Source: Promethearchaeota archaeon (GTDB lineage Archaea > Asgardarchaeota > Lokiarchaeia > Sigynarchaeales > SOKP01). Taken from it: a stretch of 14,064 nt of DNA. Both the position numbers and the translations under genes were made by a program. Below, piece after piece: positions 2,292 to 13,105 of this stretch. Location: positions 1 to 14,064 of the forward strand of contig JAEOTL010000448.1 in assembly GCA_016839845.1 (NCBI GenBank), read 5' to 3'. A model generated the notes under the pieces. The model was not told the origin of the DNA. It ran no database searches and worked only from the letters and a program-made list of their open reading frames with translations. How positions within the stretch are numbered: the stretch's first letter is position 1; each line of letters starts with the position of its first letter.

Positions 2292-3641
2292 TTATAATCT
2301 GATATAACGATTTCTCTCCCATTCTGAGACAACTATCCTGTATGCGTCATATTCTTCAAGTTTGGCATAATAATAATTTTTAAAAGCAGTCTCTCCGAAG
2401 ATTTCCTTCATCAGTTCTGAATCTTTAAATTCCCGTAATGCTTCATGTAGACTTCCGGGTAAAGAAATGATACCTTCTTTTTCCATTTCTTTTGAAGTGA
2501 GATGATATACATTTCTATCTGTAGCATCAGGGATTTCAATATCTTCTGATAAAATCCCTTCTAATCCCGTAGAAATTAATACACTGAATTGAAGGTAGGG
2601 ATTTCCAGAAGGATCTGGGCATCTAATTTCGCATCTTGCTGCATTAGGTCTTCCATGAAAATCAGGTACTCTTATAAGGGGTGATCTATTTCTAAATCCC
2701 CACGCTAAATAGACTGGAGCTTCATATCCTGGTACTAACCTCTTATAAGAATTTGGCCAACTACTCAAAACTGCACACATTGCTCTTGCGTGTTTTAATT
2801 GACCAGCAATCCATTTTTTCATTATAAGTGAAATGTTATCTTTATCGTTTTCATCATAGAATGCATTATTACTATTTTCCCATAAAGATTGATGCACATG
2901 CATCCCTGATCCATTAATCCCATCGAAGGGTTTTGGCATAAACGTGCCAATAAGATTATTTTGTGCTGAAACAGTCTTTACTATTGTTTTTATAGTGATT
3001 GTGTTATCAGCAGTCTCAACTGCCTTATCATACCGAAAATCTATTTCATGTTGACCATAGGCTACCTCGTGGTGAATGCACTCAACATCCACTCCCATAC
3101 CATCGCAATATTCCGCAATTGTGTATCTAATCATCTCATTAATATCATAAGGATCATAATCGAAATATCCTCTCAGATCTGATGGCTTAAATTCCTGTTT
3201 AGTGTCAGGTGCTAGTATGAAAAATTCCATCTCTGGGGCGCATTGAAATTTATAACCTAAATCTTCTGCTTTTTTAACAGCTCTTTGCAAAATACCGCGT
3301 GGATCCCCTTCATAACGTTCTCCATCAGGTTTATATATGTCACATATTACCCGTGCGACTTTTTTCTCTTTTCTCCATGGGAGGATATAAAAGGTGCTGG
3401 GATCAGGAAGGGCAACTTTATCGCTTTCTTCAATTGCACCATAACCAGTTATTGAACTTCCATCAAAATTTTCACCTACTTCAAAAATATCTTCAATTCG
3501 TTTTGAATTAATTTCAAACGATTTTATGATACCATGGATGTCTGTGAATTGGAGATATATGAATTTAATATCTTCTTCTTTTATTGTTTCAATTACTGAA
3601 CCACAAACCTGTTTCCTTTTTGGATTTTCTTTTTCAATCAT
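2292..3641 (-). CDS. glnA: Glutamine synthetase, type I (alpha-like)
   Basis: Makes glutamine from glutamate, ammonia and ATP; type I enzymes are cytosolic dodecamers. Family signatures appear in order: NFDGSSITGYGAIEESD (59-74), the metal-site APEMEFFIL (135-143), HHEVAYGQHEIDFRY (190-204), KPFDGINGSGMHVHQS (237-252), the substrate-site NSYKRLVPGYEAPVY (297-311), RNRSPLIRVP (317-326) and RCEIRCPDPSGNPYL (336-350). The 449-residue length and the C-terminal SLPGSLHEAL segment, with no adenylylation-site Tyr motif, fit the GSI-alpha group. The position matching B. subtilis R62, which mediates glutamine feedback, is Ala69. The N-terminus carries about 12 extra residues before the usual start of the beta-grasp domain. 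The ATG has no ribosome site, but a TATA-like element lies ~29 nt upstream, so the mRNA is probably near-leaderless. It follows the zinc-ribbon A gene by 31 nt. Confidence 0.97.
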   Translation of the reverse strand: MIEKENPKRKQVCGSVIETIKEEDIKFIYLQFTDIHGIIKSFEINSKRIEDIFEVGENFDGSSITGYGAIEESDKVALPDPSTFYILPWRKEKKVARVICDIYKPDGERYEGDPRGILQRAVKKAEDLGYKFQCAPEMEFFILAPDTKQEFKPSDLRGYFDYDPYDINEMIRYTIAEYCDGMGVDVECIHHEVAYGQHEIDFRYDKAVETADNTITIKTIVKTVSAQNNLIGTFMPKPFDGINGSGMHVHQSLWENSNNAFYDENDKDNISLIMKKWIAGQLKHARAMCAVLSSWPNSYKRLVPGYEAPVYLAWGFRNRSPLIRVPDFHGRPNAARCEIRCPDPSGNPYLQFSVLISTGLEGILSEDIEIPDATDRNVYHLTSKEMEKEGIISLPGSLHEALREFKDSELMKEIFGETAFKNYYYAKLEEYDAYRIVVSEWERNRYIRL

Positions 3642-3665: not shown

Positions 3666-3674
3666 GTATATTTT
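3666..3674 (-). promoter_or_regulatory. Putative TATA box for glnA
   Basis: The minus strand reads AAAATATAC, centred ~29 nt before the glnA ATG, which places transcription start within a few bases of the codon. It overlaps the last codon and stop region of zinc-ribbon A. It implies that glnA can be transcribed independently of that gene. Confidence 0.45.
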
Positions 3675-4044
3675 ACTCGTAAAGTAGAGAAGCATCACTT
3701 CTATCCCTCTTAATTATGGAAAAATTACCTAGAGTTAGTGATCCCGAAGAACTCTTCAATTCTCGTTCATATTTACTAGTAAATTCTGAATTCCAATTAT
3801 ATGCTTTTCCCTTATTTGTTATGAAATTATTTGGTTCAGGTGTTAAATCTTTGATCAACTCATAAATAGGAGTTGGTTTAAAGGCCAATGTCTCAATACC
3901 TATAAAGACTGAACAGTTCCACTTATGGTCAAGTTCATATCGACTCTTGGTAATACCACTATATATCGAGTAATCCTCACAAGCTTGGCAAATTTTACTA
4001 TCATAATGATATTTTTTTCCACATATAGGGCATTTAATTTCCAT
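3673..4044 (-). CDS. Small zinc-ribbon protein A, uncharacterised; paralogue of the protein at 5699-6091
   Basis: I do not recognise a named family. The 123-residue protein begins with a four-cysteine zinc ribbon, C5-x2-C8-x10-C19-x2-C22, followed by a KWNC segment (41-44), a mixed region without membrane segments, and a C-terminus ending LLYE. Cysteine spacing, the K-W-x-C motif, an N-W-N segment and the terminal L-x-Y-E are all shared with zinc-ribbon protein B, so the two are homologous across their length. I place the start at the ATG at 4042-4044 because it lines up exactly with the start of B; a GTG at 4056 would add four residues. An ATGGG-N7-CCCAT palindrome lies 28 nt upstream of the start. 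It sits just upstream of glnA. Zinc or iron binding and a regulatory or adaptor role are inferences. Confidence 0.75.
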   Translation of the reverse strand: MEIKCPICGKKYHYDSKICQACEDYSIYSGITKSRYELDHKWNCSVFIGIETLAFKPTPIYELIKDLTPEPNNFITNKGKAYNWNSEFTSKYERELKSSSGSLTLGNFSIIKRDRSDASLLYE

Positions 4045-4072
4045 ACTATTTTTCACTTCTCATGATTATTTT

Positions 4073-4089
4073 ATGGGAGATTAACCCAT
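4073..4089 (-). promoter_or_regulatory. Operator-like palindrome, site A (ATGGG-N7-CCCAT)
   Basis: Perfect 5-bp inverted arms with a 7-nt AT-rich spacer. On the minus strand it lies just downstream of a TATA-like TTATTTAAGG (4098-4107), roughly at positions -15 to -1 relative to the inferred start of zinc-ribbon A transcription. It matches sites B (5378-5399) and C (11418-11437) in sequence and placement, which suggests one shared DNA-binding protein. Confidence 0.6.
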
Positions 4090-4150
4090 TTTTTAATCCT
4101 TAAATAACAAATGTGATCGTATATATAAAAATATTACTATTGATCATAAC

Positions 4151-4164
4151 AAATGTTTACATTT
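4151..4164. promoter_or_regulatory. AAATGT-TT-ACATTT dyad in the divergent control region
   Basis: This is a perfect 6-bp dyad with a 2-nt centre between zinc-ribbon A and the Lrp-like gene. Further AAATGT half-sites occur at 4109-4114 and 4183-4188, and the inverted ACATTT at 4254-4259. Lrp/AsnC proteins often bind several AT-rich dyads next to their own gene, so this is a plausible site for the adjacent regulator. It is a motif observation only. Confidence 0.4.
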
Positions 4165-4181
4165 ATGGAGAGAAACACTTA

Positions 4182-4260
4182 TAAATGTTCACTTATAATA
4201 AATAATAATGACCAAACGATGAGATTGACAATTTTTGTCGTAACAAGAAATGAACATTTA
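4182..4260. repeat. 10-bp inverted repeat TAAATGTTCA ... TGAACATTTA upstream of the Lrp-like gene
   Basis: Exact 10-bp arms at 4182-4191 and 4251-4260, 59 nt apart and lying upstream of the Lrp-like promoter. The spacing is too wide for a simple hairpin but suits two sites bound by one oligomeric regulator with a DNA loop. The TGTTCA/TGAACA core recurs in the other large non-coding regions of the window. Confidence 0.4.
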
Positions 4261-4297
4261 GTCATATTTCAATAAATGAAATGGACAACCGTATAAT

Positions 4298-4305
4298 TTT
4301 ATATT
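4298..4305 (+). promoter_or_regulatory. Putative TATA box for the Lrp/AsnC-like gene
   Basis: TTTATATT centred ~38 nt before the ATG at 4340 puts transcription start near 4327-4330. This argues against translation from the TTG at 4304, which lies inside the box, and leaves the GTG at 4328 or the ATG at 4340 as possible starts. Confidence 0.5.
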
Positions 4306-4339
4306 GAAATTTAGGCTATCTACTCTTGTGATTTCAAAA

Positions 4340-4816
4340 ATGAATCTAAATGAATTAGATTTTAAGATCCTTGGAAAACTAAGTGAAGATGGTCGAATCT
4401 CACTTCGGCAACTTGCAAGAGATTTAGAGATTGGTTCTCCGGTAACCATTAAAAATCATGTAGAAAATTTAGATAAAAAAGGCATAATCAAAAATTATGG
4501 TGCTCAAATAGATTATGAGAAACTTGGATATGATATAATTGCTGTAATTGAGATGTCCATAGAAAAGGGAAAGATGATTGAGGTGGAAAACAATATTTCT
4601 AAAGACCCGCATATATTTGCCGTTTATGATATCACAGGAGAATATGATGCGTTAATTCTTGCACGATTCAAGAGCAGAAGCGACTTAAATGCATTAATAA
4701 AAAAGGTTCACACATTTCAGTATGTTCAACGAACAAATACTCATATTGTACTCAACATCATAAAGGAAGATAACTCATTTAACGCACTTATCAAAGATGA
4801 TAAATTAAAAGAATAA
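4340..4816 (+). CDS. Lrp/AsnC-family transcriptional regulator
   Basis: A 158-residue feast/famine regulator that would bind DNA as a dimer or octamer and respond to an amino acid. The N-terminal AsnC-type helix-turn-helix spans about residues 1-60 (LNELDFKILGKLSEDGRIS, then LRQLARDLEI and the recognition helix around TIKNHVENLDKKGIIKNY). The C-terminal RAM ligand domain shows VYDITGEYDALILARFKSRSDLNALI and ends in the typical RTNTHIVLNIIKED strand. Length is normal for the family. The ATG at 4340 is preferred because it gives the standard family N-terminus and lies about 10 nt after the predicted transcription start; the in-frame GTG at 4328 is the alternative. It is transcribed divergently from zinc-ribbon A and glnA, a position consistent with control of nitrogen genes on both sides. 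The target genes and ligand are inferred, not shown. Confidence 0.92.
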   Translation: MNLNELDFKILGKLSEDGRISLRQLARDLEIGSPVTIKNHVENLDKKGIIKNYGAQIDYEKLGYDIIAVIEMSIEKGKMIEVENNISKDPHIFAVYDITGEYDALILARFKSRSDLNALIKKVHTFQYVQRTNTHIVLNIIKEDNSFNALIKDDKLKE

Positions 4817-4847
4817 CTTTAAAAAATAATGGTTTTGATAAAGTTAG

Positions 4848-4973
4848 GCGTTTTGCAGGTGGTATCGAAGAACGGTAGCAAATGGGTTTGAAATTGGTGG
4901 GAGAAATGGCCCAATAAATTTTAAGCTTATTATAGGAATTGAACATGCTCGAAATTTGATTAAAAAATGCTAA
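4848..4973 (+). pseudogene. Possible decayed coding fragment (tentatively transposase-like C-terminus)
   Basis: Between an in-frame TAG and a TAA there are about 40 open codons without a start. They read FCRWYRRTVANGFE at the beginning and GIEHARNLIKK at the end. The NGF...GIE.....K pattern loosely recalls the C-terminus of IS6-type transposases, but there is no DDE core, no terminal repeat and no start. It could equally be chance or an RNA element. The base composition differs visibly from the AT-rich flanks. Confidence 0.15.
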
Positions 4974-5193
4974 AACTAATAATTCGAAATTTATATACCT
5001 TTTTTAAAAATAATTTCTAAAAGTTTTTCAATATTTTGCCTAGTTCGTCTTATTTTGTTCATAATTTGTATAAAACTTCTTGAAATAACTTGAATATATT
5101 TCAGAAAAATACATAAATGTCAACAAAAAGTTCATTTCATTTAAAAATGTACTGGAGATTTTGTGGAATAATAAATGATTTTTTAAAAATTGT

Positions 5194-5371
5194 TCAATTT
5201 ATAGGAGTAAATCTTAAATAGGAGATTAATAAAAATGAACAATGCTCGACATTATCCATCCTAACTATTAATTCGTTCAATATTACACGATTTTCTTGAT
5301 CCTTTTTTAGAATATCTGAATAATTTTCTACATTTTGTTCAAGTAACTTTAAATAACCATAATACTTTATT
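5194..5371 (-). pseudogene. Possible coding remnant on the minus strand, no start codon
   Basis: About 58 codons are open after a TAA and end at a TGA. The sequence is protein-like and rich in Glu, Asn, Leu and Ile (LLEQNVENYSDILKK, then NRVILNELIVRMDNVEH), as in a coiled coil. No ATG, GTG or TTG stands near the beginning, and it overlaps the promoter of the plus-strand winged-helix gene. It is either the tail of a decayed gene or a chance open frame. Confidence 0.18.
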
Positions 5372-5377
5372 TATATA
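5370..5377 (+). promoter_or_regulatory. TATA box for the winged-helix/zinc-ribbon B operon
   Basis: A clear TTTATATA lies immediately before palindrome B. Transcription would start near 5400, leaving a ~50-nt purine-rich leader before the ATG at 5451. Confidence 0.6.
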
Positions 5378-5399
5378 TTATGGGATAAAAATCCCATAA
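5378..5399 (+). promoter_or_regulatory. Operator-like palindrome, site B (TTATGGGAT-AAAA-ATCCCATAA)
   Basis: This is a perfect 9-bp inverted repeat around an AAAA centre, placed between the TATA box and the inferred transcription start. Bound protein there would block RNA polymerase. The core ATGGG-N8-CCCAT differs from site C at only three of 18 positions. Because it probably lies upstream of the start of transcription, it is more likely a DNA operator than an RNA hairpin. Confidence 0.7.
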
Positions 5400-5450
5400 A
5401 AAAACTAATAAAAAACAAGAGGTTAAAAAAAAGATTTAAAAAAGGAGGTT

Positions 5451-5672
5451 ATGAAAATAACAGTTCAAGAGTATTATCGAACATGGGAAGAAATTTGCCT
5501 TGAAAAACTAAGAGAAATAGGAAGATGTTCAGCAGCAGAATGGGCTGCGGCGATGGGATATGGAGAAAATCGTAATGGAGTAACAACAGTTATTAAACGA
5601 ATAAGAAAGAATATGCCGGAAAAATTAAAGGTATATTATGAAAAAAGACCTCGCTTATACGAGGCTTTATAA
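5451..5672 (+). CDS. Small winged-helix-like DNA-binding protein (73 aa), uncharacterised
   Basis: I recognise no named family. The 73-residue basic protein is predicted to fold as a compact winged helix: a first helix (about 5-22), a helix CSAAEWAAAMGY (25-36), a likely recognition helix NGVTTVIKRIRKN (42-54), and a short hairpin wing around LKVYYEKRPRLYEA. No membrane or metal motif is present. The ribosome site GGAGGT (5444-5449) is strong but ends only 1 nt before the ATG, which is unusually close. No later ATG, GTG or TTG would keep the first helix. It begins the unit controlled by palindrome B and is followed 26 nt later by zinc-ribbon B. A role as the autoregulating protein that binds the ATGGG palindromes is inferred from location and fold. 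Confidence 0.72.
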   Translation: MKITVQEYYRTWEEICLEKLREIGRCSAAEWAAAMGYGENRNGVTTVIKRIRKNMPEKLKVYYEKRPRLYEAL

Positions 5673-5698
5673 AAAAATTAAAAGGAGAATGAACTAAT

Positions 5699-6091
5699 AT
5701 GGCGTTAAGATGTCAATTATGTGGAGAAGAATTAAAGTACGATTGTAAGGTATGTCATAATTGTGAGAAAATTGTTGTTGACAATGGCTTAAGGAATGAT
5801 AAGAAGTGGCGTTGTGATAATTTTTTAGAATTACCAAGTTTACCGTTTGGAAGTAATCTAAAGTCAGACGTATTAGAGAAATTTAGTAAGGTATTTGAAA
5901 CGGAATTTCCAATACGTAATTGGAATTGCGATACATCTATTGCTTGCACCGAATTATTATCAACAGAATTGCCAACAGTTAATTCAGGTTTAATAGGTCA
6001 CCATGTAGAAATACTTGAGAACCCTGAAAATATAATAAATAAATTTGTAGGAATTCAAGATGAGAAGAAAAATCTTCTTATCTATGAATAA
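5699..6091 (+). CDS. Small zinc-ribbon protein B, uncharacterised; paralogue of the protein at 3673-4044
   Basis: A 130-residue protein of no family I can name. It starts with C5-x2-C8-x10-C19-x2-C22, exactly the spacing of zinc-ribbon A, then KKWRC (35-39), an RNWNC segment and a C-terminal LLIYE. Additional cysteines at 16 and in the middle are not conserved in A. The ATG is supported by GGAG (5683-5686) at good spacing and by alignment with A. It is the second gene of a two-gene unit with the winged-helix protein (26-nt gap) and probably shares its promoter and palindrome. No signal peptide or membrane helix is present. A metal-binding cytosolic adaptor or transcription-related protein is the most that can be inferred. 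Confidence 0.78.
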   Translation: MALRCQLCGEELKYDCKVCHNCEKIVVDNGLRNDKKWRCDNFLELPSLPFGSNLKSDVLEKFSKVFETEFPIRNWNCDTSIACTELLSTELPTVNSGLIGHHVEILENPENIINKFVGIQDEKKNLLIYE

Positions 6092-6143
6092 AGTCTTTTT
6101 AGAATTAGTTTTGAAATAAAATTAAGTAAAAAAGAGAAAAACG

Positions 6144-6212
6144 ATGATTATACCTCAAGAAACAGTCGAGTGTAAGGTAGTAGTAAAGAAGGTAGCTTAT
6201 TCAGGTTATTAA
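6144..6212 (+). CDS. Very short ORF (22 codons), doubtful
   Basis: ATG to TAA between zinc-ribbon B and the hdrBC gene. The peptide MIIPQETVECKVVVKKVAYSGY looks protein-like, with an alternating beta-strand pattern, but only a weak AAAGAG precedes it and nothing similar is nearby. It could be a leader peptide, the truncated start of a lost gene or chance. Confidence 0.15.
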   Translation: MIIPQETVECKVVVKKVAYSGY

Positions 6213-6275
6213 GATTAAGTTATTTCTTTAGCTTTTTTGCTTAATATTTTTAATTAATAACTTAATTTAATTAAC

Positions 6276-6280
6276 GAGGT
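6276..6280 (+). promoter_or_regulatory. Ribosome site GAGGT that points to a non-ATG start for the hdrBC gene
   Basis: GAGGT ends 5 nt before an in-frame ATA (6286) and 8 nt before an ATT (6289). The next standard start codon is a TTG at 6307, 26 nt away with no good ribosome site. The site therefore favours initiation at ATA or ATT. Confidence 0.4.
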
Positions 6281-6285
6281 TAAAT

Positions 6286-7629
6286 ATAATTCAGCAAGAG
6301 ATCGTTTTGTTCCCGGGATGTGTTATTACATATCGGCTTCCCTTTATTGAAGCTTCAATAAGAAAGCTTATGGATTATCTCGAGTTGCCCTTTACGGAAA
6401 ACCCTAAATTTTCGTGTTGTCCCGATCCAAGTGGAATAAAAAATACCGATAAGATGTTGTATACTATTACTGCTGCCCGTAATCTTGCTCTTGCTGAAAA
6501 AGAAAACAAAGCGATTATGACTCCCTGTAATGGATGTTATACTACATTAAAGAAAGTTAAAGGAGATGTGGGGACAGATCATCATTTAAGGAAAAAAATC
6601 AATGATAATCTCGTCAACATTGGAATTAAAGTACAGGGAAACTCTGAAATTTTTCACATGGTTGAATATTTTTCTAAATTTCGGAGAGAAGCAATTAAAG
6701 ATTATTTAATATATCCTCTCACGGGATTAAGGGTTGCATTGCATTATGGGTGCCATTTTCTAAGACCTAGCCATAGAGTTCAATTAGATGATCCAATAAA
6801 ACCAACTATATTCGATACATTAATTCAAGATCTTGGTGCGATTAGTGTTGCTTATGATTTAAAAATGGAATGTTGCGGGGGTAGTCTTGGAAGAGCAGGT
6901 AATGTTGAATTATCTTTAGAAATTGTTAGGTCTAAACTTGAAAGCATGAAAGAGAATAATGTTGACTGTATCGTAGTGAGTTGTCCTCAATGTTTCATTC
7001 AATTTGATCATTTGCAGAAGGAACTTAAAAAACTAGACTATAATTTTGATATCCCTGTTTTATATTACTCAGAGTTATTGTGTTTGGCATTAGGAATCGA
7101 AATCAATGACACCATGAAAAAACATCATCGGACACAAGTTGATTCATTATTTGAGAAGATTGACCTTATTCAAGCCAAAAATGAAGAGATAAGAAAATTT
7201 TTTGATCTGAATTTCATGCTGAAATGCTTCTCCTGTGGTGCTTGCGAAAATGATTGTATCATTGCTCGAATGACTGAATTTAGCCCAAATAAAATTGTTG
7301 GTAATCTATTAGAGGGGAAAATTGAAGAAGTATTAGCGGACCCATCAATTTGGATGTGTGTTGACTGTTATTTATGTTATGAACTTTGCCCAATGAAAGT
7401 TGGGCTAATAGACATATTCACTGTCTTAAGAAATTTAGCTACCAAGGAAGGATTTGTTCCCGAAGGAATTAGAAATGAATTTAATACTTTTCATGACAAA
7501 GGTACTGTCGGGATTTTATCAAAAGCGGCACGGAGCAGAGTGGGATTGAAAAGCGTCAAATCTGATGTCGAAGATCTAAAAAAATTATTTAGTATTATAG
7601 AAAAAGAAAATACGAGCACTGAATCATAA
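6286..7629 (+). CDS. HdrB-HdrC fusion, heterodisulfide reductase-like iron-sulfur protein
   Basis: Likely cytosolic electron-transfer or disulfide-reducing protein. Numbered from the TTG at 6307, the HdrB part holds two complete CCG domains: C5, C37-C38, C74-x2-C77, then C149, C189-C190, C226-x2-C229, the ligands of the non-cubane clusters in HdrB. The HdrC part has two [4Fe-4S] motifs: C307-x2-C310-x2-C313-x3-C317 and C351-x2-C354-x2-C357-x3-C361-P. The order is B then C, opposite to the C-B fusion HdrD. Starting at the TTG gives MFPGC and loses the first beta-strand; upstream in-frame codons read IIQQEIVLFPGC, as expected for HdrB, and a GAGGT site favours the ATA at 6286. The TTG remains possible. 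It leads the glutamate synthase operon, 22 nt before the amidotransferase gene. No hdrA is nearby. The role is inferred to be electron supply to the synthase. Confidence 0.88.
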   Translation: MIQQEIVLFPGCVITYRLPFIEASIRKLMDYLELPFTENPKFSCCPDPSGIKNTDKMLYTITAARNLALAEKENKAIMTPCNGCYTTLKKVKGDVGTDHHLRKKINDNLVNIGIKVQGNSEIFHMVEYFSKFRREAIKDYLIYPLTGLRVALHYGCHFLRPSHRVQLDDPIKPTIFDTLIQDLGAISVAYDLKMECCGGSLGRAGNVELSLEIVRSKLESMKENNVDCIVVSCPQCFIQFDHLQKELKKLDYNFDIPVLYYSELLCLALGIEINDTMKKHHRTQVDSLFEKIDLIQAKNEEIRKFFDLNFMLKCFSCGACENDCIIARMTEFSPNKIVGNLLEGKIEEVLADPSIWMCVDCYLCYELCPMKVGLIDIFTVLRNLATKEGFVPEGIRNEFNTFHDKGTVGILSKAARSRVGLKSVKSDVEDLKKLFSIIEKENTSTES

Positions 7630-7651
7630 CCATATCGAAGGTGAAGAGAAA

Positions 7652-8842
7652 ATGAAATGGAAAAATTACACTTCATTACCGGATCAGTATAAGAATCAGA
7701 GAATTTTTGATGGTTGTGGAATCTCAGGTTTGATTAACATTGATGGGACTAAAATCTCAGGTAAAAACATTGCTGATATGTTATGTATATTAAAAGAGCG
7801 AGAAAACGGACTAGGAGCAGGGTTTGCTGCCTATGGTATCTATCCTAAATACAAAGATTACTACGCTTTTCATTTTCTTTTTGATGATAAAATGGCAAAG
7901 GGAAAAACTTTAGAATATTTAGAAAACACCGGCACAATTATCCATTCTGAACCCGTTCCTACAAATTTTCCTAATAATATTGATAATCCCCCAATAATCT
8001 GGAGGGTGTTTTATGAACCTTCAAGAAGTAAAACACGAAATTATGATGAATCTGTCGTACAGTTAGTTATGGAAGTCAACGCCAATATTGAGAATGCCTT
8101 TGTTATGTCATCGGGAAAAAACATGGGCGTTTTTAAAGGCAATGGATGGTCATATGAAATAGCTGATTTTTATAAAATATCTGAATATAAAGGATATATG
8201 TGGTTAGCCCATTCTAGGTTCCCTACAAATACACCAGGCTGGTGGGGTGGTGCACATCCATTTAATTTATTAAATTGTTCAGTTGTTCATAATGGGGAAA
8301 TAACTTCATATGGTACTAATAAAAGATATTTAGAATCCTTTGGGTATAAATGTACATTATTTACTGATACGGAAGTAATAGCCTATTTATTTGACCTTCT
8401 ATGCCGTAAACAAAATATTCCAGTGTCTCTAGCAACAATTGCTTTAGCTCCTCCCTTATTTGAGGATATTAACAGAATGGATGAAAAAAGTAAACAATTG
8501 CTTAAATATATCAGAGCAACTTACAGGAGTGCCATGTTAAATGGACCTTTTTCAATTGTAGTTGGGTATTCCGATCCGATACCTACAATAATAGGGTTAT
8601 CTGATAGGAAAAAATTAAGACCCTTAGTCGCAGGGATTTCTGAAGATGAAAATACCGTGTATATGAGTAGTGAGGAAACCTCATTCAAGAGATTAATGTT
8701 AATTGATGAGAACTTCGATTTAAAAGAAGTGTGGCATCCTAAAAGTGGTACTGCCGTTATAGCAAAACTAGGGGAAGGTTTAATAAGAGACGGCTTAGGG
8801 ATGCCTCTCACAATAACTAAACAATCAAAATTGGAGGCTTAA
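7652..8842 (+). CDS. gltB1: Glutamate synthase, glutamine amidotransferase subunit (class II)
   Basis: Releases ammonia from glutamine for glutamate synthesis; corresponds to the N-terminal domain of bacterial GltB, here a separate archaeal-style subunit of 396 residues. The Ntn catalytic cysteine is C22 in DGCGISG, preceded by 21 residues that would have to be removed, as in GltB propeptides. Other family motifs are RFPTNTPGWWGGAHPF (189-204), VVHNGEI (211-217) with the oxyanion N-G pair, and TDTE (238-241). The ATG is supported by AAGGTGA (7638-7644) 7 nt upstream. It overlaps nothing and is 3 nt from the FMN subunit gene, so the two are surely cotranscribed. An alternative is MgsA of N-methylglutamate synthase, which has the same three-gene layout; glnA nearby favours glutamate synthase. 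Confidence 0.88.
   Translation: MKWKNYTSLPDQYKNQRIFDGCGISGLINIDGTKISGKNIADMLCILKERENGLGAGFAAYGIYPKYKDYYAFHFLFDDKMAKGKTLEYLENTGTIIHSEPVPTNFPNNIDNPPIIWRVFYEPSRSKTRNYDESVVQLVMEVNANIENAFVMSSGKNMGVFKGNGWSYEIADFYKISEYKGYMWLAHSRFPTNTPGWWGGAHPFNLLNCSVVHNGEITSYGTNKRYLESFGYKCTLFTDTEVIAYLFDLLCRKQNIPVSLATIALAPPLFEDINRMDEKSKQLLKYIRATYRSAMLNGPFSIVVGYSDPIPTIIGLSDRKKLRPLVAGISEDENTVYMSSEETSFKRLMLIDENFDLKEVWHPKSGTAVIAKLGEGLIRDGLGMPLTITKQSKLEA
8833..8837 (+). promoter_or_regulatory. Ribosome site GGAGG deciding the start of the FMN subunit
   Basis: GGAGG lies within the end of the amidotransferase gene, 8 nt before the ATG at 8846 and 5 nt before the TTG at 8843. Both are in frame; the spacing and codon favour the ATG. 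Confidence 0.5.
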
Positions 8843-8845
8843 TTG

Positions 8846-10366
8846 ATGGAAGTTACACATGAAATTTTGTCATACTACAAAGTCAAAGTAAATCAAGAAG
8901 ATTGTAAGAAATGTAAGAGATGCGTTAATCACTGTTCTTACGATGTTTTGTCATTTAATGGTGAGAAAATTGTAGCCGATGATAATAAATGCGTAGCTTG
9001 TCAAAGATGTGTGGTTATGTGTCCTGGGGCTGCTATACATATTGAGCAGAATAATTCCTACTTACCTCCTCATGGTAATTATACAAGAAAAATACGCAAT
9101 ATTATTTGGGCTCAGTCTGGTAACGGAGGTGTCTTATTGTCGGCAACTGGAAATGACAGACCAATTCGATCAATATTTGATGACCTCCTTCTTGATGCCT
9201 GCCAAGTTACAAACCCAAGTATTGATCCTTTGAGAGAGACAATTGAGACTCAAATCTTCTTTGGTCGAAAACCAAAATGTCTTGACTTCACTACTGAAAC
9301 AGAGGATATTTCTGAGGTTTCATTAAAAACAAAGATCTTCCCTAACTTTGAAATAGATATGCCAATTATGGTTGGACATATGTCTTTAGGCTCGATTAGC
9401 TATAATGCATGTCAAGCAATCTATCAAGCAGCTAAAGAGTTAAATATTGTTGCAGGCTCAGGAGAAGGGGGATTACATCCAGATTTTTATGAATATGCTC
9501 CACATATTATTACTGAGGTTGCCTCTGGGAGATTCGGAGTTGATATTAATTACCTTAATAATGCAGCAGGAATAGAGATCAAAATTGGACAGGGAGCAAA
9601 ACCAGGTCATGGGGGCCATTTACCTGGTGAAAAAGTAAGTAGTTTAATATCAGAAACTCGAATGATTCCTAAAGGCACTGATGCATTATCTCCTTATCCA
9701 CATCATGATATATATTCAATAGAAGATTTAGCTCAACTTATTGCGGCATTAAAAGAAGCTACCAGATATAAAGTTCCTATAGGTGTCAAGATCGCGGCAG
9801 TTCATAATTCAGCCCCAATTGCTGTTGGAATTGTAAGAGGTGGTGCTGATTTTCTAACACTTGATGGATTTAGAGGAGGGACAGGTGCAGCCCCAAGGAT
9901 TATACGAGATCATGCAGGTATTCCTATTGAATTAGCCATAGCTGCTGTTGATGAAAGATTGCGACAGGAAAGTTTACGAGAACAAATAACTTTAATTGCA
10001 GGCGGATCAATTCGTTATTCTGCTGATTTAATAAAAGCAATTGCACTAGGTGCAGATGTAGCAATGTGTTGCATGCCAGTATTAATTGCTATGGGATGCC
10101 GTGTTTGTCAACAATGCTTCAGAGGGCTTTGCTCTTGGGGTATCGCAACTCAACAAGAGCACCTTGTAAGAAGATTAGATATTGATATTGCAAAGAGAAG
10201 AATTAAAAATTTATTTCATTCTTGGAATGAAGAATTAAAAGAGGTGTTAGGAGCAATGGGTATTGATTCTGTCGAATCGCTCCGATCAAATCGAGATCGA
10301 TTGAGATATATCGGTCCGAATCCGCGAATCGCGGAAATTTTAGGTGTAAAACACGCGGGTGAGTAG
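8846..10366 (+). CDS. gltB2: Glutamate synthase, ferredoxin-FMN (synthase) subunit
   Basis: Carries out the reductive transfer of ammonia to 2-oxoglutarate. The 506-residue protein begins with a two-cluster ferredoxin domain: C20-x2-C23-x2-C26-x3-C30 and C49-x2-C52-x2-C55-x3-C59-P. The FMN-binding barrel follows, with PIMVGHMSLGSISYNA, SGEGGLHPDFY, KIGQGAKPGHGGHLPGEKV, PIGVKIAAVHNSAPIAVGI, TLDGFRGGTGAAPRII and IAGGSIRYSADLIKAIALGADVA. The [3Fe-4S] motif is complete, C418-x5-C424-x4-C429, followed by WGIATQ. The ferredoxin domain replaces the GltD partner as an electron entry point. Start at the ATG at 8846 (506 aa); the TTG at 8843 is one codon earlier. It lies 3 nt after gltB1 and 3 nt before gltB3. 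MgsC of N-methylglutamate synthase is the alternative reading. Confidence 0.92.
   Translation: MEVTHEILSYYKVKVNQEDCKKCKRCVNHCSYDVLSFNGEKIVADDNKCVACQRCVVMCPGAAIHIEQNNSYLPPHGNYTRKIRNIIWAQSGNGGVLLSATGNDRPIRSIFDDLLLDACQVTNPSIDPLRETIETQIFFGRKPKCLDFTTETEDISEVSLKTKIFPNFEIDMPIMVGHMSLGSISYNACQAIYQAAKELNIVAGSGEGGLHPDFYEYAPHIITEVASGRFGVDINYLNNAAGIEIKIGQGAKPGHGGHLPGEKVSSLISETRMIPKGTDALSPYPHHDIYSIEDLAQLIAALKEATRYKVPIGVKIAAVHNSAPIAVGIVRGGADFLTLDGFRGGTGAAPRIIRDHAGIPIELAIAAVDERLRQESLREQITLIAGGSIRYSADLIKAIALGADVAMCCMPVLIAMGCRVCQQCFRGLCSWGIATQQEHLVRRLDIDIAKRRIKNLFHSWNEELKEVLGAMGIDSVESLRSNRDRLRYIGPNPRIAEILGVKHAGE
10357..10363 (+). promoter_or_regulatory. Ribosome site GGGTGAG supporting the TTG start of the GXGXG subunit
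   Basis: It lies inside the last codons of the FMN subunit gene and ends 6 nt before the TTG at 10370. The nearest ATG (10424) lacks a comparable site. Confidence 0.5.
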
Positions 10367-10369
10367 AGT

Positions 10370-11203
10370 TTGATTTTAAATGAAAGTAAAGAAAATGTTT
10401 ATGAGAATAGAATAGAAGAAACTATGGAAATAGATACGGCCCCAAATGGGGAACCGTTGGATTATAGAAAATTAAATGATATGATCCATGAATTAGTAAG
10501 GGGTAATTGTAGAAAAATCATTCTTAACAATGTGTGTGGGCAGAGATTTATTGGGGCTGCTATACAGGAAGATGTTGAAATTATTATCAAGGGTGTTCCT
10601 GGGAACGATTTAGGTATTTTTATGGATGGTCCAAAAATCAGAGTTGAAGGCAATTGTGAAGATCAATCAGGTAATACAATGAATAATGGATCGATGATAA
10701 TTGATGGAGATGCTGGTGATGTTATCGGATTGTCAGCAAGAGGTGGAAAAATTTACATCAGGGGAGATGTCGGCTATCGAGTTGGGATTCATATGAAAGA
10801 ATATGAAAACAAATTTCCTATCCTTATTGCTGGAGGGACGGCTAAAGATTTTCTGGGGGAATATATGGCTGGAGGAAAAATCATTCTATTAGGATTAAAG
10901 GCTTTATCTGATGGAACGTATGTTGAAAGTAAGGATTCCGTCTGCGGTAAAGAATTAGGTACAGGTATTCACAAAGGTTCTATTTATTTGCGTACAGAAG
11001 AGGACTTAGAGTATAATCTAGGTGTTGGGGCAAGAGTTTCAGATCTTTCAGAAGAGGAGCATAAAGAAATTGCTCCTTTGATAGCTGATTTTTGTAAAGA
11101 ATTTGATATTCCCTTAGATGCGATCAACAATAAACACTTTAAGGTAGTAAAACCAATATCAAAAAGGCCGTTTAGGGGAACATATTGTAGTCAAATGGTT
11201 TAA
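10370..11203 (+). CDS. gltB3: Glutamate synthase, GXGXG (C-terminal) domain subunit
   Basis: Structural subunit matching the C-terminal beta-helix of bacterial GltB, which holds the ammonia channel between the glutaminase and synthase sites. After a ~45-residue acidic N-terminal arm, the repeat region (about 55-175) shows the regular glycine pattern: CGQRFIGAAIQEDVEI, GNCEDQSGNTMNNGSMIIDGDAGD, SARGGKIYIRGDVGYRVG, and LIAGGTAKDFLGEYMAGGKIILLGL. The 277-residue length is typical of archaeal GltB3. I keep the TTG start because a GGGTGAG site sits 6 nt upstream; the ATG at 10424 would remove 18 residues of arm only. It is the last gene of the hdrBC-gltB1-gltB2-gltB3 unit, 3 nt behind gltB2. MgsB of N-methylglutamate synthase is the alternative name for the same fold. 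Confidence 0.88.
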   Translation: MILNESKENVYENRIEETMEIDTAPNGEPLDYRKLNDMIHELVRGNCRKIILNNVCGQRFIGAAIQEDVEIIIKGVPGNDLGIFMDGPKIRVEGNCEDQSGNTMNNGSMIIDGDAGDVIGLSARGGKIYIRGDVGYRVGIHMKEYENKFPILIAGGTAKDFLGEYMAGGKIILLGLKALSDGTYVESKDSVCGKELGTGIHKGSIYLRTEEDLEYNLGVGARVSDLSEEEHKEIAPLIADFCKEFDIPLDAINNKHFKVVKPISKRPFRGTYCSQMV

Positions 11204-11206
11204 TCG

Positions 11207-11273
11207 TTGAACAATGTTTATAAATTTATGGTTGGATATTAAAACTTATTGGTATGAATTGAGCATTGTTCAA
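11207..11273. repeat. 10-bp inverted repeat TTGAACAATG ... CATTGTTCAA after gltB3
   Basis: Exact arms at 11207-11216 and 11264-11273, with a 47-nt interval, beginning 3 nt after the gltB3 stop. The right arm read on the minus strand continues as TTGAACAATGCTCAATT, close to the element at 5235-5249. They may be paired regulator sites for the downstream gene or a large stem-loop at the end of the operon. Confidence 0.4.
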
Positions 11274-11335
11274 TGATCTGTTAAAGAACTGAACAAAAAT
11301 AAAGGTTTTGATTCGTTTATATTAACTGTCATAAC

Positions 11336-11342
11336 TTTTTTT
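11336..11342 (+). terminator. T-tract after the glutamate synthase operon
   Basis: A run of seven T, followed by other T-rich stretches to about 11372, lies ~130 nt beyond the gltB3 stop and before the next promoter. It is a reasonable archaeal termination zone, but only weakly distinct in this AT-rich DNA. Confidence 0.3.
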
Positions 11343-11417
11343 CTTAATTTGTTATTAATTTGTTTAATTTTTTAGACGAAAATTTATTAAGAAGAAAATC
11401 TAATCATTATTAAAAAC

Positions 11418-11437
11418 AATGGGTAAAAATTCCCATT
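11418..11437 (+). promoter_or_regulatory. Operator-like palindrome, site C (AATGGG-N8-CCCATT)
   Basis: Six-bp perfect arms with an 8-nt spacer, directly after a TATA-like CATTATTAAAAAC (11405-11417) and 18 nt before the ATG at 11456. Its inferred position, about -18 to -1, matches that of sites A and B. Confidence 0.65.
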
Positions 11438-11455: not shown

Positions 11456-13105
11456 ATGACAAAATTTTCAATGGATACCCATCAGATGAGTATGATTGGT
11501 TCCAGAACGAGGGTTGAGGATTCTTGTGAGTCTGGATTATGCCCGATTTGTATTGCCGATTGTCCTGTTTTTTGTGAGGTTTCAAAATCCGCTCTTAGGG
11601 GCCGTGAAGTGTTGTATCCCAGAAGAGAATTTTTTGGGAATTCAACTGCGGGATCTCCTAAGGATTTTGGCTTGTCATACGGGGACTTTCAAATTCAATT
11701 TGAATGTCGGGGTGCCCTAGGGATCGAAGCCCACGAAGATAAGGTAATTTTTCCAAATGCCAATATTGAGACTAAATGGGGGAATATTAAACAGAAGTAC
11801 CCCATCGTAATCGCAGGACTTGGGAGCACCTACGTAGCCAAGCGTAACTGGGACGGACTTGCGATAGGTTCAGCCCTTGCAGGAGTAAGCATCACAGTTG
11901 GTGAAAATGTAGTAGGGATGGATCCTGAAGCGAGATTTGCTAACCACGCTGTTTATCCCCAAGTTATCGATACTCAGGATATGAAGAATCGTGTCGCGAC
12001 CTATCGAGAATTTTGGGACGGTGAACATGGAGATATTATAGTTCAGAAAAATGTGGAAGACACACGATTGGGGGTATTTGATTATGTAATGTCAAAATTA
12101 GAGGTTAATTCCCTTGAAATTAAATTTGGACAAGGAGCAAAAGCTATCGGTGGTGAAGTGCGATTAGAATCTCTCGAACGAGCACAATTACTCCAAGAAA
12201 GAGGTTATTTGGTTTTTCCTGATCCGTCAGATCCTGTCATTATTGAGCAATGGAAACAAGGATTAATCCCCGATTTTGAACGGCATAGTCGAGTTGGACT
12301 TTCTTCAACTGAAGATGTTTTGGAAGAAATTGATCAAGTTCGCTCAAGTGGGGCTAAAAATGTTTTCATAAAAACGGGGGCATATAGACCAGCAGCAACC
12401 GCATGGATCCTCAGATTAGGAATTGAGGGTAAAGTCGATGGAATGACATTCGACGGAGCTGGTGGTGGTACAGGAATGAGTCCCGTAAGTATGATGAATG
12501 AAGGCTCAATTCCAACTTCATATTTAGAAGCTCTTGTAGTTGGTTGTTTAGACATGATAAAGCAGAAATCTCCCCATGCGTCTCTTCCATCAATAGCAAT
12601 CGCAGGAGGTATTGCAACTGAGACGCAAATTTTTAAAGCTCTTGCTATGGGAGCACCATATATAAATTGTATTGCTATGGCGAGAGCTCCTATAACTGCG
12701 GCCATGAAAGCTAAATACATCGGAGAAGTTATCGACAAGCATGAAGCATCTCCAGCAATGCTGAAAAACTTAGGATTTCCCAAAGAAAAAGATCCAAAAA
12801 GTTTAACACTTAGTGAAGCTTTTGTTGAATACGATAATCTAAGTAGAGTTCACAACGGTCACATAATTCCACCATCTGCGATTGGAGTTTATACGTATTT
12901 TGCGGATAAACTTGGTGTTGGCTTAAAACAACTACTTGCGGGTGTTAGGAAATTTCGATTAGATCTGTTAGATCGTCAAGACATTGCGTACATTTCTCAA
13001 AGAGCAAAAGAAGTGTGCCATAAATGGAAATTAGGAATAAAATCTCAAGAATCAATTGATTATGAACTAGTGAAGAACGAGATTTATTCTGGTAATTATG
13101 AATAA
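11456..13105 (+). CDS. Stand-alone glutamate-synthase-type FMN protein with cysteine-rich N-terminus
   Basis: A 549-residue relative of the GltB FMN domain with no glutaminase or GXGXG part. Barrel motifs are present: YPIVIAGLGSTYVAKRNWDGL, EIKFGQGAKAIGGEVR (221-236), NVFIKTGAYRPAATAW, MTFDGAGGGTGMSPV (330-344) and SIAIAGGIATETQIFKALAMGA (379-400). Near the start are five cysteines (24, 29, 32, 36, 40), spaced x4-x2-x3-x3, probably an iron-sulfur site. The [3Fe-4S] motif of true synthases is missing; only C405 lies in that area. The ATG has a modest GTGA (11446-11449) upstream. It has its own promoter with palindrome C and is separated from the gltB operon by 252 bp. It may use free ammonia, partner with the amidotransferase subunit or catalyse another amino-acid reaction; the substrate cannot be read from sequence. 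Confidence 0.85.
   Translation: MTKFSMDTHQMSMIGSRTRVEDSCESGLCPICIADCPVFCEVSKSALRGREVLYPRREFFGNSTAGSPKDFGLSYGDFQIQFECRGALGIEAHEDKVIFPNANIETKWGNIKQKYPIVIAGLGSTYVAKRNWDGLAIGSALAGVSITVGENVVGMDPEARFANHAVYPQVIDTQDMKNRVATYREFWDGEHGDIIVQKNVEDTRLGVFDYVMSKLEVNSLEIKFGQGAKAIGGEVRLESLERAQLLQERGYLVFPDPSDPVIIEQWKQGLIPDFERHSRVGLSSTEDVLEEIDQVRSSGAKNVFIKTGAYRPAATAWILRLGIEGKVDGMTFDGAGGGTGMSPVSMMNEGSIPTSYLEALVVGCLDMIKQKSPHASLPSIAIAGGIATETQIFKALAMGAPYINCIAMARAPITAAMKAKYIGEVIDKHEASPAMLKNLGFPKEKDPKSLTLSEAFVEYDNLSRVHNGHIIPPSAIGVYTYFADKLGVGLKQLLAGVRKFRLDLLDRQDIAYISQRAKEVCHKWKLGIKSQESIDYELVKNEIYSGNYE

Follow-up and report, generated by a model that had tools for sequence, protein, structure and literature searches.

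A 14-bp palindrome shared by promoters of a small winged-helix protein and of glutamate and carbon metabolism genes in Lokiarchaeia

We analysed a 14,064-nucleotide stretch of Lokiarchaeal DNA (Promethearchaeota archaeon, contig JAEOTL010000448.1; hereafter the window) in which a palindrome with ATGGG and CCCAT arms stands ahead of the znrA-glnA unit, of the gene for a 73-amino-acid (aa) winged-helix protein, wh73, and of a gene for a glutamate-synthase-like flavoprotein. In relatives the kept core of this palindrome is GGGA-N6-TCCC, usually in the full form ATGGGAA-N4-TTCCCAY, and the same palindrome is found at unlinked promoters, kept before wh73, flavoprotein and ATP-citrate lyase orthologues, as is looked for in an archaeal regulon. 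We are in very little doubt that the operator and the regulon are real. The shared operator and candidate regulon put forward in an earlier sequence-only reading of this DNA are thereby borne out and prove wider than was thought, as seen at the flavoprotein, wh73 and citrate lyase promoters. We infer that GGGA-N6-TCCC is a DNA operator which a small winged-helix protein would bind as a homodimer in response to a signal. The likeliest such protein is wh73, although our confidence that wh73 itself is the reader in the genomes that have it falls a little short of even. The regulon would serve glutamine and glutamate metabolism and linked carbon metabolism, comprising wh73-znrB, the flavoprotein gene and probably znrA-glnA, and in relatives would also take in ATP-citrate lyase and iorB (indolepyruvate oxidoreductase beta).

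Within the window the ATGGG and CCCAT arms match exactly at all three sites (Table 1), with a spacer of 7 at site A and of 8 at sites B (5380-5397) and C, and each site stands ahead of a gene, as had been read from the sequence; the 3 differences between B and C over 18 positions were likewise read correctly. Site A lies 16 bp ahead of the znrA GTG and 28 bp ahead of the first ATG, site B 53 bp ahead of wh73 (counted from 5397) and site C 19 bp ahead of the flavoprotein gene. With spacers of 5-10 allowed, three matches were found against 0.09 expected, and none of 200 dinucleotide shuffles reached three. Site C has the variant core GGGT-N6-TCCC and site A another spacing, GGG-N7-CCC. The site-bearing genes are those originally named as targets, a list that omitted glnA and, possibly, the glutamate-synthase genes (6307-11203) behind site B.

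Conservation was assessed in relatives, whose genomes and loci carry G- and L-numbers, respectively. Of 56 copies of wh73, 52 were assessable (120 bp or more of DNA upstream; 4 were dropped for too little), and in 33 of them GGGA-N6-TCCC was present in the 180 bp preceding the matched domain against 0.027 expected from a first-order Markov model. Outside one group of short paralogues in the tree 32 of 35 copies have the site, while inside it 1 of 17 does. The motif is thus present upstream of orthologues, where the sequence-only reading had held that its absence would speak against a regulon. Core bases are invariant in these 33 sites because the search pattern demands them; the flanks are mostly A-T ahead and A-C or A-T behind, and loose variants at other genes have GGGT and ACCC arms too. 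In five genomes the wh73 site is retained beside remnants of the flavoprotein gene, and is therefore not kept for that gene alone. These remnants, truncated or stop-bearing, lie behind wh73 (L078 in G005, G132:C25, G145:C192, G151:C47 and G154:C86), and their sequences suggest repeated loss of the flavoprotein gene. The short paralogues without the palindrome share another inverted repeat, about CCACTnCTCTTATnnTTAGGAGTAGTG, approximately 100 nt upstream (read at L103, L105, L115, L117, L119, L124 and L125).

An AlphaFold2 model of wh73 (predicted local distance difference test, pLDDT, 81.7; predicted template modelling score, pTM, 0.68) has the H1-S1-H2-H3-S2-S3 fold of a winged helix, and fold matches agree, in support of the earlier reading as a winged-helix-like protein. 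Pfam and PDB sequence searches with wh73 returned no significant match, and a weak match to the Pfam family HTH_18 was seen in 10 of 20 family members (best E-value 0.01). At 73 residues wh73 has neither a sensor domain nor extra dimerisation helices. Homologues were identified by profile search in 38 of 227 Promethearchaeota genomes, a broader profile adding just one marginal match, and wh73 is followed by a znr-like gene in 13 of 26 loci, likewise at L001, L003, L007 and L026.

Counts for the flavoprotein cover 31 genes, the one in the window and those at 30 loci of relatives, and leave out full-length relatives at 70-74% identity (G011, G158, G161 and G162). Flavoprotein genes standing alone in genomes with wh73 have a site 21-43 bp upstream in six of six cases, four strict and two with GGGT or ACCC; such own-promoter sites were found, besides the window, in G002, G021, G133, G150 and G155. 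None of the 15 flavoprotein genes within 1 kb behind wh73 has a site of its own, which would be expected if they share that of wh73. The 650 bp upstream of the glnA unit contain GGG-N7/8-CCC in 6 of 26 cases against 0.56 expected (a partial glnA match in G138 was left out), and in none of 11 in genomes without a main wh73 copy. GGG-N7-CCC lies close to the beginning of the unit in the window and in G002, G021, G015 and G145, the match in G004 being far upstream, and the spacing of site A is kept before znr in G002, G021 and G015 and before glnA in G145. The glnA product of the window is 76-92% identical to glutamine synthetases on 22 Lokiarchaeal contigs, while the remaining 4 loci found belong to lactobacilli (44-46% identity).

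Two further families, ATP-citrate lyase (identified by PF16114 and PF24948) and iorB, were chosen because their promoters recurred in pattern scans, citrate lyase from matches in G004, G132, G136 and G015. Its promoters have the strict core in 14 of 20 cases and a loose one in 1 more, at 79-91 bp, and 10 are strict among the 16 genomes not used for picking. Of 11 iorB loci found by protein, six are strict, every one at 94 bp, and two are loose, at 76 and 108 bp; two more strict sites (G138 and G140) were found via the pattern itself. Upstream DNA was too short at iorB of G014 and G157 and at hdr of G157, and these rows were dropped. In both families the distance from site to start hardly varies. 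Selection biases the share of iorB loci with a site, but not the constancy of that distance as the spacer bases change. The two sets of promoters also share a kept stretch about TCATGTAnAAGTnAA, roughly 10 nt after the palindrome (L269-L273 and L299-L318). At iorB of G020, G018 and G013 (L274, L276 and L279) the palindrome is replaced by TCCCATTA half-sites in tandem, at intervals of about 11 bp.

A number of observations weigh against a wh73-read regulon as outlined above. Site A differs in spacing from B and C, and in the window only B and C match GGGW-N6-WCCC, a count of two that 9 of 200 shuffles also reached. The window is for these reasons weaker evidence than the relatives, and the earlier statement that the palindromes are not expected by chance stands for all three together and less well for the kept core alone. 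Outside the paralogue group the wh73 copies without a site are those of G140, one of G020 and the distant one of G017. The site is missing at five citrate-lyase and three iorB promoters, and all strict iorB sites had already been met in pattern scans, the four fresh loci giving none strict and one loose. No site was found within 220 bp of hdr, the leader of the glutamate-synthase set, in any of 12 genomes, including two in which hdr stands behind wh73; a site ending 207 bp ahead of hdr in G133 was excluded by the 220-bp limit. The hdr gene of the window (6307-7629), which likewise has no site of its own over that distance, possibly belongs to the wh73 unit, so that the glutamate-synthase genes may be served by site B. 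In the flavoprotein tree presence of wh73 changes once, a single branch (support 100/98) splitting genomes with and without it, and in the glnA tree it changes twice, with the long-branched G133 placed among genomes without wh73; the co-occurrence of wh73 is therefore essentially one contrast.

Raw match counts also tell against it. The pattern WRTGGGA-N6-TCCC has 230 matches in 37 genomes with wh73 or a paralogue and 76 in 16 others (6.2 against 4.75 per genome), the latter including G017 with its distant homologue and the more distant G158, G161 and G162. A reversed-pattern control gave 62 and 29 matches, respectively; this control overstates the enrichment, since the 16 comparison genomes themselves reach 76 against 29, and raw counts were not used. 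ATGGG-N8-CCCAT gave 49 matches in 22 genomes against 23 for its reversed control, 31 of them inside open frames of at least 80 codons, an outcome which the sequence-only reading had named as contrary to a regulon; of the 18 outside, 10 precede wh73 (5) or iorB (5). Genomic context was viewed for part of the WRTGGGA-N6-TCCC matches listed, those for the wh73 genomes extending as far as some of G146. The 40 stretches viewed, chosen partly as palindromic-looking and hence biased in proportion, comprise 18 matches in genes and 22 outside, 12 of the latter in four families (citrate lyase 4, iorB 4, a 155-aa protein 2 and a 63-aa protein 2). The regulon is defined by placement before orthologues, which the pattern alone does not do. 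For the two small proteins the core lies about 105 bp upstream of the 155-aa protein (G002 and G005; L203 and L210) and about 154 bp upstream of the 63-aa protein (G014, G141 and G145; L057, L226 and L229).

The remaining contrary points come from a separate Loki clade that has the same core, with a wh73 homologue only in G017, which is distant and has no site (searched at E-values up to 0.05). In this clade the core precedes the flavoprotein gene in 2 of 10 cases (G156 and G157, at 83 and 127 bp; 8 are without), precedes N-acetylornithine carbamoyltransferase in G157 and, in G124 and G125, adjoins genes for an AMP-binding ligase and a symporter. Among 11 genomes of the clade a strong citrate-lyase match was found in none and a close full-length iorB in G157 only, where upstream DNA is too short. 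GGGA-N6-TCCC is also present 207-253 bp before the gene for TFB in six of six closest orthologues, 76-100% identical (L414-L419, in G019, G017, G156, G010, G122 and G157), and the remaining 24 TFB loci gave 2 loose matches, with 0.11 expected over the 30 loci. Three of these orthologues had previously been viewed in context and a fourth was in a genome match list; among those unused for picking it is three of three. From these sequences some factor seems to read the same core in the other clade too. We consider it quite possible, at somewhat below an even chance and nearly as likely as reading by wh73, that the sites are read by some other transcription factor which Lokiarchaeia have in common, with wh73 as only one target and perhaps a second-level regulator. 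The short wh73 paralogues point the same way: their third helix resembles that of wh73, yet 16 of the 17 that were assessable lack the site. However, no such candidate emerged from our analysis, and the TFB sites read GTGGGA-N6-TCCC, rather than having the ATGGGA and TCCCAY arms, and may serve a different protein. The proposal that the 73-aa protein is the binding factor is favoured by the site at its own promoter and by the flavoprotein pattern, and is opposed by the same core in a clade without wh73 proper.

Reading of the palindromes by the Lrp/AsnC protein encoded divergently from znrA-glnA is improbable. Site A falls within the intergenic region common to znrA and lrp, 229 bp before lrp, and the excerpted text of PMC3584215 describes Sa-Lrp of Sulfolobus acidocaldarius, an Lrp-family protein with minor-groove contacts, as binding at glnA, gltB, gdhA and its own gene in a glutamine-responsive manner. 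Sa-Lrp as described there thus resembles the putative reader in binding control regions of like genes (glnA, gltB), but wh73 is a lone winged helix and the palindrome is absent from the regions upstream of lrp here. GGGA-N6-TCCC was found within 250 bp upstream of lrp at 0 of 15 and 0 of 8 loci, and in genomes without a main wh73 copy lrp adjoins glnA with no such site there; we rejected Lrp as the reader on these site-less regions. The Lrp/AsnC architecture of a helix-turn-helix (HTH) and a ligand-binding domain is not found in wh73, which is 73 aa long with no significant Pfam match, and hhalign of wh73 against the head of the neighbouring Lrp gave an E-value of 0.0048 and a probability of 7%. 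The glnA-lrp intergenic region itself (4100-4300 in the window) contains repeated TGATCA-like words and a ATTTTTGTCG kept in several relatives, from their sequence a possible Lrp site apart from the palindrome.

Placement of the site differs between the groups of promoters. The site lies 20-81 nt ahead of the start codon in the 27 of 33 wh73 promoters for which a start was assigned. By a crude octamer score that lacked a background control, 20 of the 33 have their best match to TTTATATA beginning 38-47 nt ahead of the site. This spacing suggests that the wh73 site may lie at or just after the transcription start, and not, as previously read, between the TATA-like element and the start. At citrate lyase and iorB the site is upstream of the TATA-like stretch. 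The former would be a repressor's place and the latter an activator's: at wh73, the flavoprotein gene and glnA, where the site is near the gene at or after the inferred start, the bound protein would block transcription, with self-limitation, while at citrate lyase and iorB, where it stands about 80-95 bp before the start codon, it would activate. A leader position for wh73 sites, perhaps after the transcription start, would also suit an RNA hairpin, and two-sided changes that keep pairing are found in 3 sequences for the outermost pair and in 1 for the next. However, the outermost pair cannot form in 18 of the 33 wh73 sites, nor the next one in 5, and the three pairs inside the spacer are broken in 16, 23 and 16; the iorB and citrate-lyase sites lie upstream of the TATA-like stretch, and an Rfam search of the window matched no family. 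Because of the broken pairs and the Rfam null we rejected an RNA stem, to which we give very little credence, and a DNA operator appears the better fit to the sequences. Chance palindromes in AT-rich intergenic DNA, an account with the least probability of all, would agree with raw genome matches lying mostly in genes or near background and with the shuffles that equal two matches, but are rejected for sites B and C on a recurrence before wh73, flavoprotein and citrate-lyase orthologues more than 100-fold above expectation, a small chance of such an origin being kept for site A.

The NrpR system responds to 2-oxoglutarate. In the excerpted text of PMC2723118 the NrpR operator of Methanococcus maripaludis is GGAA-N6-TTCC, and NrpR of methanogens acts at nif, glnK-amtB, glnA, a sodium-alanine symporter and others. 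As far as that text goes, the likeness extends to a 4-6-4 palindrome of 14 bp, to a position at glnA and further nitrogen genes in both and to a symporter gene, one of which lies beside a site in G124 and G125, whereas the arms here, GGGA/TCCC, are each one base off GGAA/TTCC and carbon genes are among the putative targets. GGAA-N6-TTCC is not the form in our sites, which read GGGA-N6-TCCC, GGGT-N6-TCCC and GGG-N7-CCC. A search for the NRD domain (PF01995) found it in 5 of 227 Promethearchaeota genomes and in none of the 38 with wh73 homologues, and on this result NrpR was rejected as the reader. Comparison of wh73 with the NrpR winged-helix head by hhalign, a profile against one sequence over a short domain, gave an E-value of 0.18 and a probability of 0.3%. 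From the MarR, ArsR, BlaI and Z-alpha winged helices wh73 differs in having no significant Pfam match and no sensor domain. By analogy, its mode of action may be like that of NrpR or Lrp. In other Asgard genomes (G095:C54, G096:C52 and G097:C3) the distance between an NrpR-domain gene and a flavoprotein homologue is about 1 kb, an arrangement that would fit nitrogen control of that enzyme.

A bolder reading, which we regard as unlikely, is that in one Loki clade a lone, sensor-free winged helix some 70-90 residues long would act as a carbon-nitrogen master switch replacing NrpR. It would repress its own operon, glutamine synthetase and the glutamate-synthase-like enzyme from sites at the transcription start and activate ATP-citrate lyase and indolepyruvate oxidoreductase from sites upstream of the promoter, through one 14-bp operator carried over from an earlier, Loki-wide regulon with a TFB gene among its members. 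No paper on a Lokiarchaeal operator or regulon was found among titles and abstract starts of open-licence PubMed Central; an archaeal operator with a winged-helix regulator is a known kind, while the operator, protein family and gene set described here are new within the literature searched. Lokiarchaea are relatives, among the archaea, of the lineage from which our own cells arose. The 14-bp operator, the list of promoters and the 73-aa candidate make their gene regulation testable in vitro, and would reveal control of nitrogen assimilation without NrpR.

The genes of the window are given in Table 1. Downstream of site B the plus strand carries wh73 and znrB and then the HdrBC-like and glutamate-synthase genes, while the znrA-glnA unit is on the minus strand, glnA beginning 31 nt behind znrA.

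Table 1 Sites and genes of the window discussed in the text
Feature	Position	Strand	Basis
Site A, ATGGG-N7-CCCAT	4073-4089	.	Exact match
Site B, TTATGGGAT-AAAA-ATCCCATAA	5378-5399	.	Core GGGA-N6-TCCC at 5382-5395
Site C, ATGGGTAAAAATTCCCAT	11419-11436	.	Exact match
glnA, type I glutamine synthetase	2292-3641	-	NCBIfam TIGR00653 above cut-off
znrA, small CxxC/CxxC protein, similar to znrB	3673-4056	-	Sequence comparison
Lrp/AsnC-type regulator	4304-4816	+	PF01037 and HTH
wh73, 73-aa single winged-helix protein	5451-5672	+	AlphaFold2 model, homologues
znrB, small CxxC/CxxC protein 3' of wh73	5699-6091	+	
HdrB/HdrC-like iron-sulphur protein, first of the glutamate-synthase genes	6307-7629	+	Pfam and NCBIfam searches
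Glutamine amidotransferase domain, archaeal-type glutamate synthase	7652-8842	+	PF00310
Glutamate synthase flavin mononucleotide (FMN) domain with ferredoxin domain	8843-10366	+	PF01645, 2.7e-126
GXGXG domain of glutamate synthase	10370-11203	+	PF01493
FMN glutamate-synthase-like flavoprotein	11456-13105	+	PF01645, partial, 8.1e-16

An NCBIfam search with the flavoprotein and a Pfam search with znrA and znrB gave no match. The znrA and znrB proteins share similar C-terminal tails (LLYE and LIYE), and with one of these zinc-ribbon proteins encoded before glnA and the other behind wh73, it is conceivable from their sequences and positions that they help to handle glutamine synthetase.

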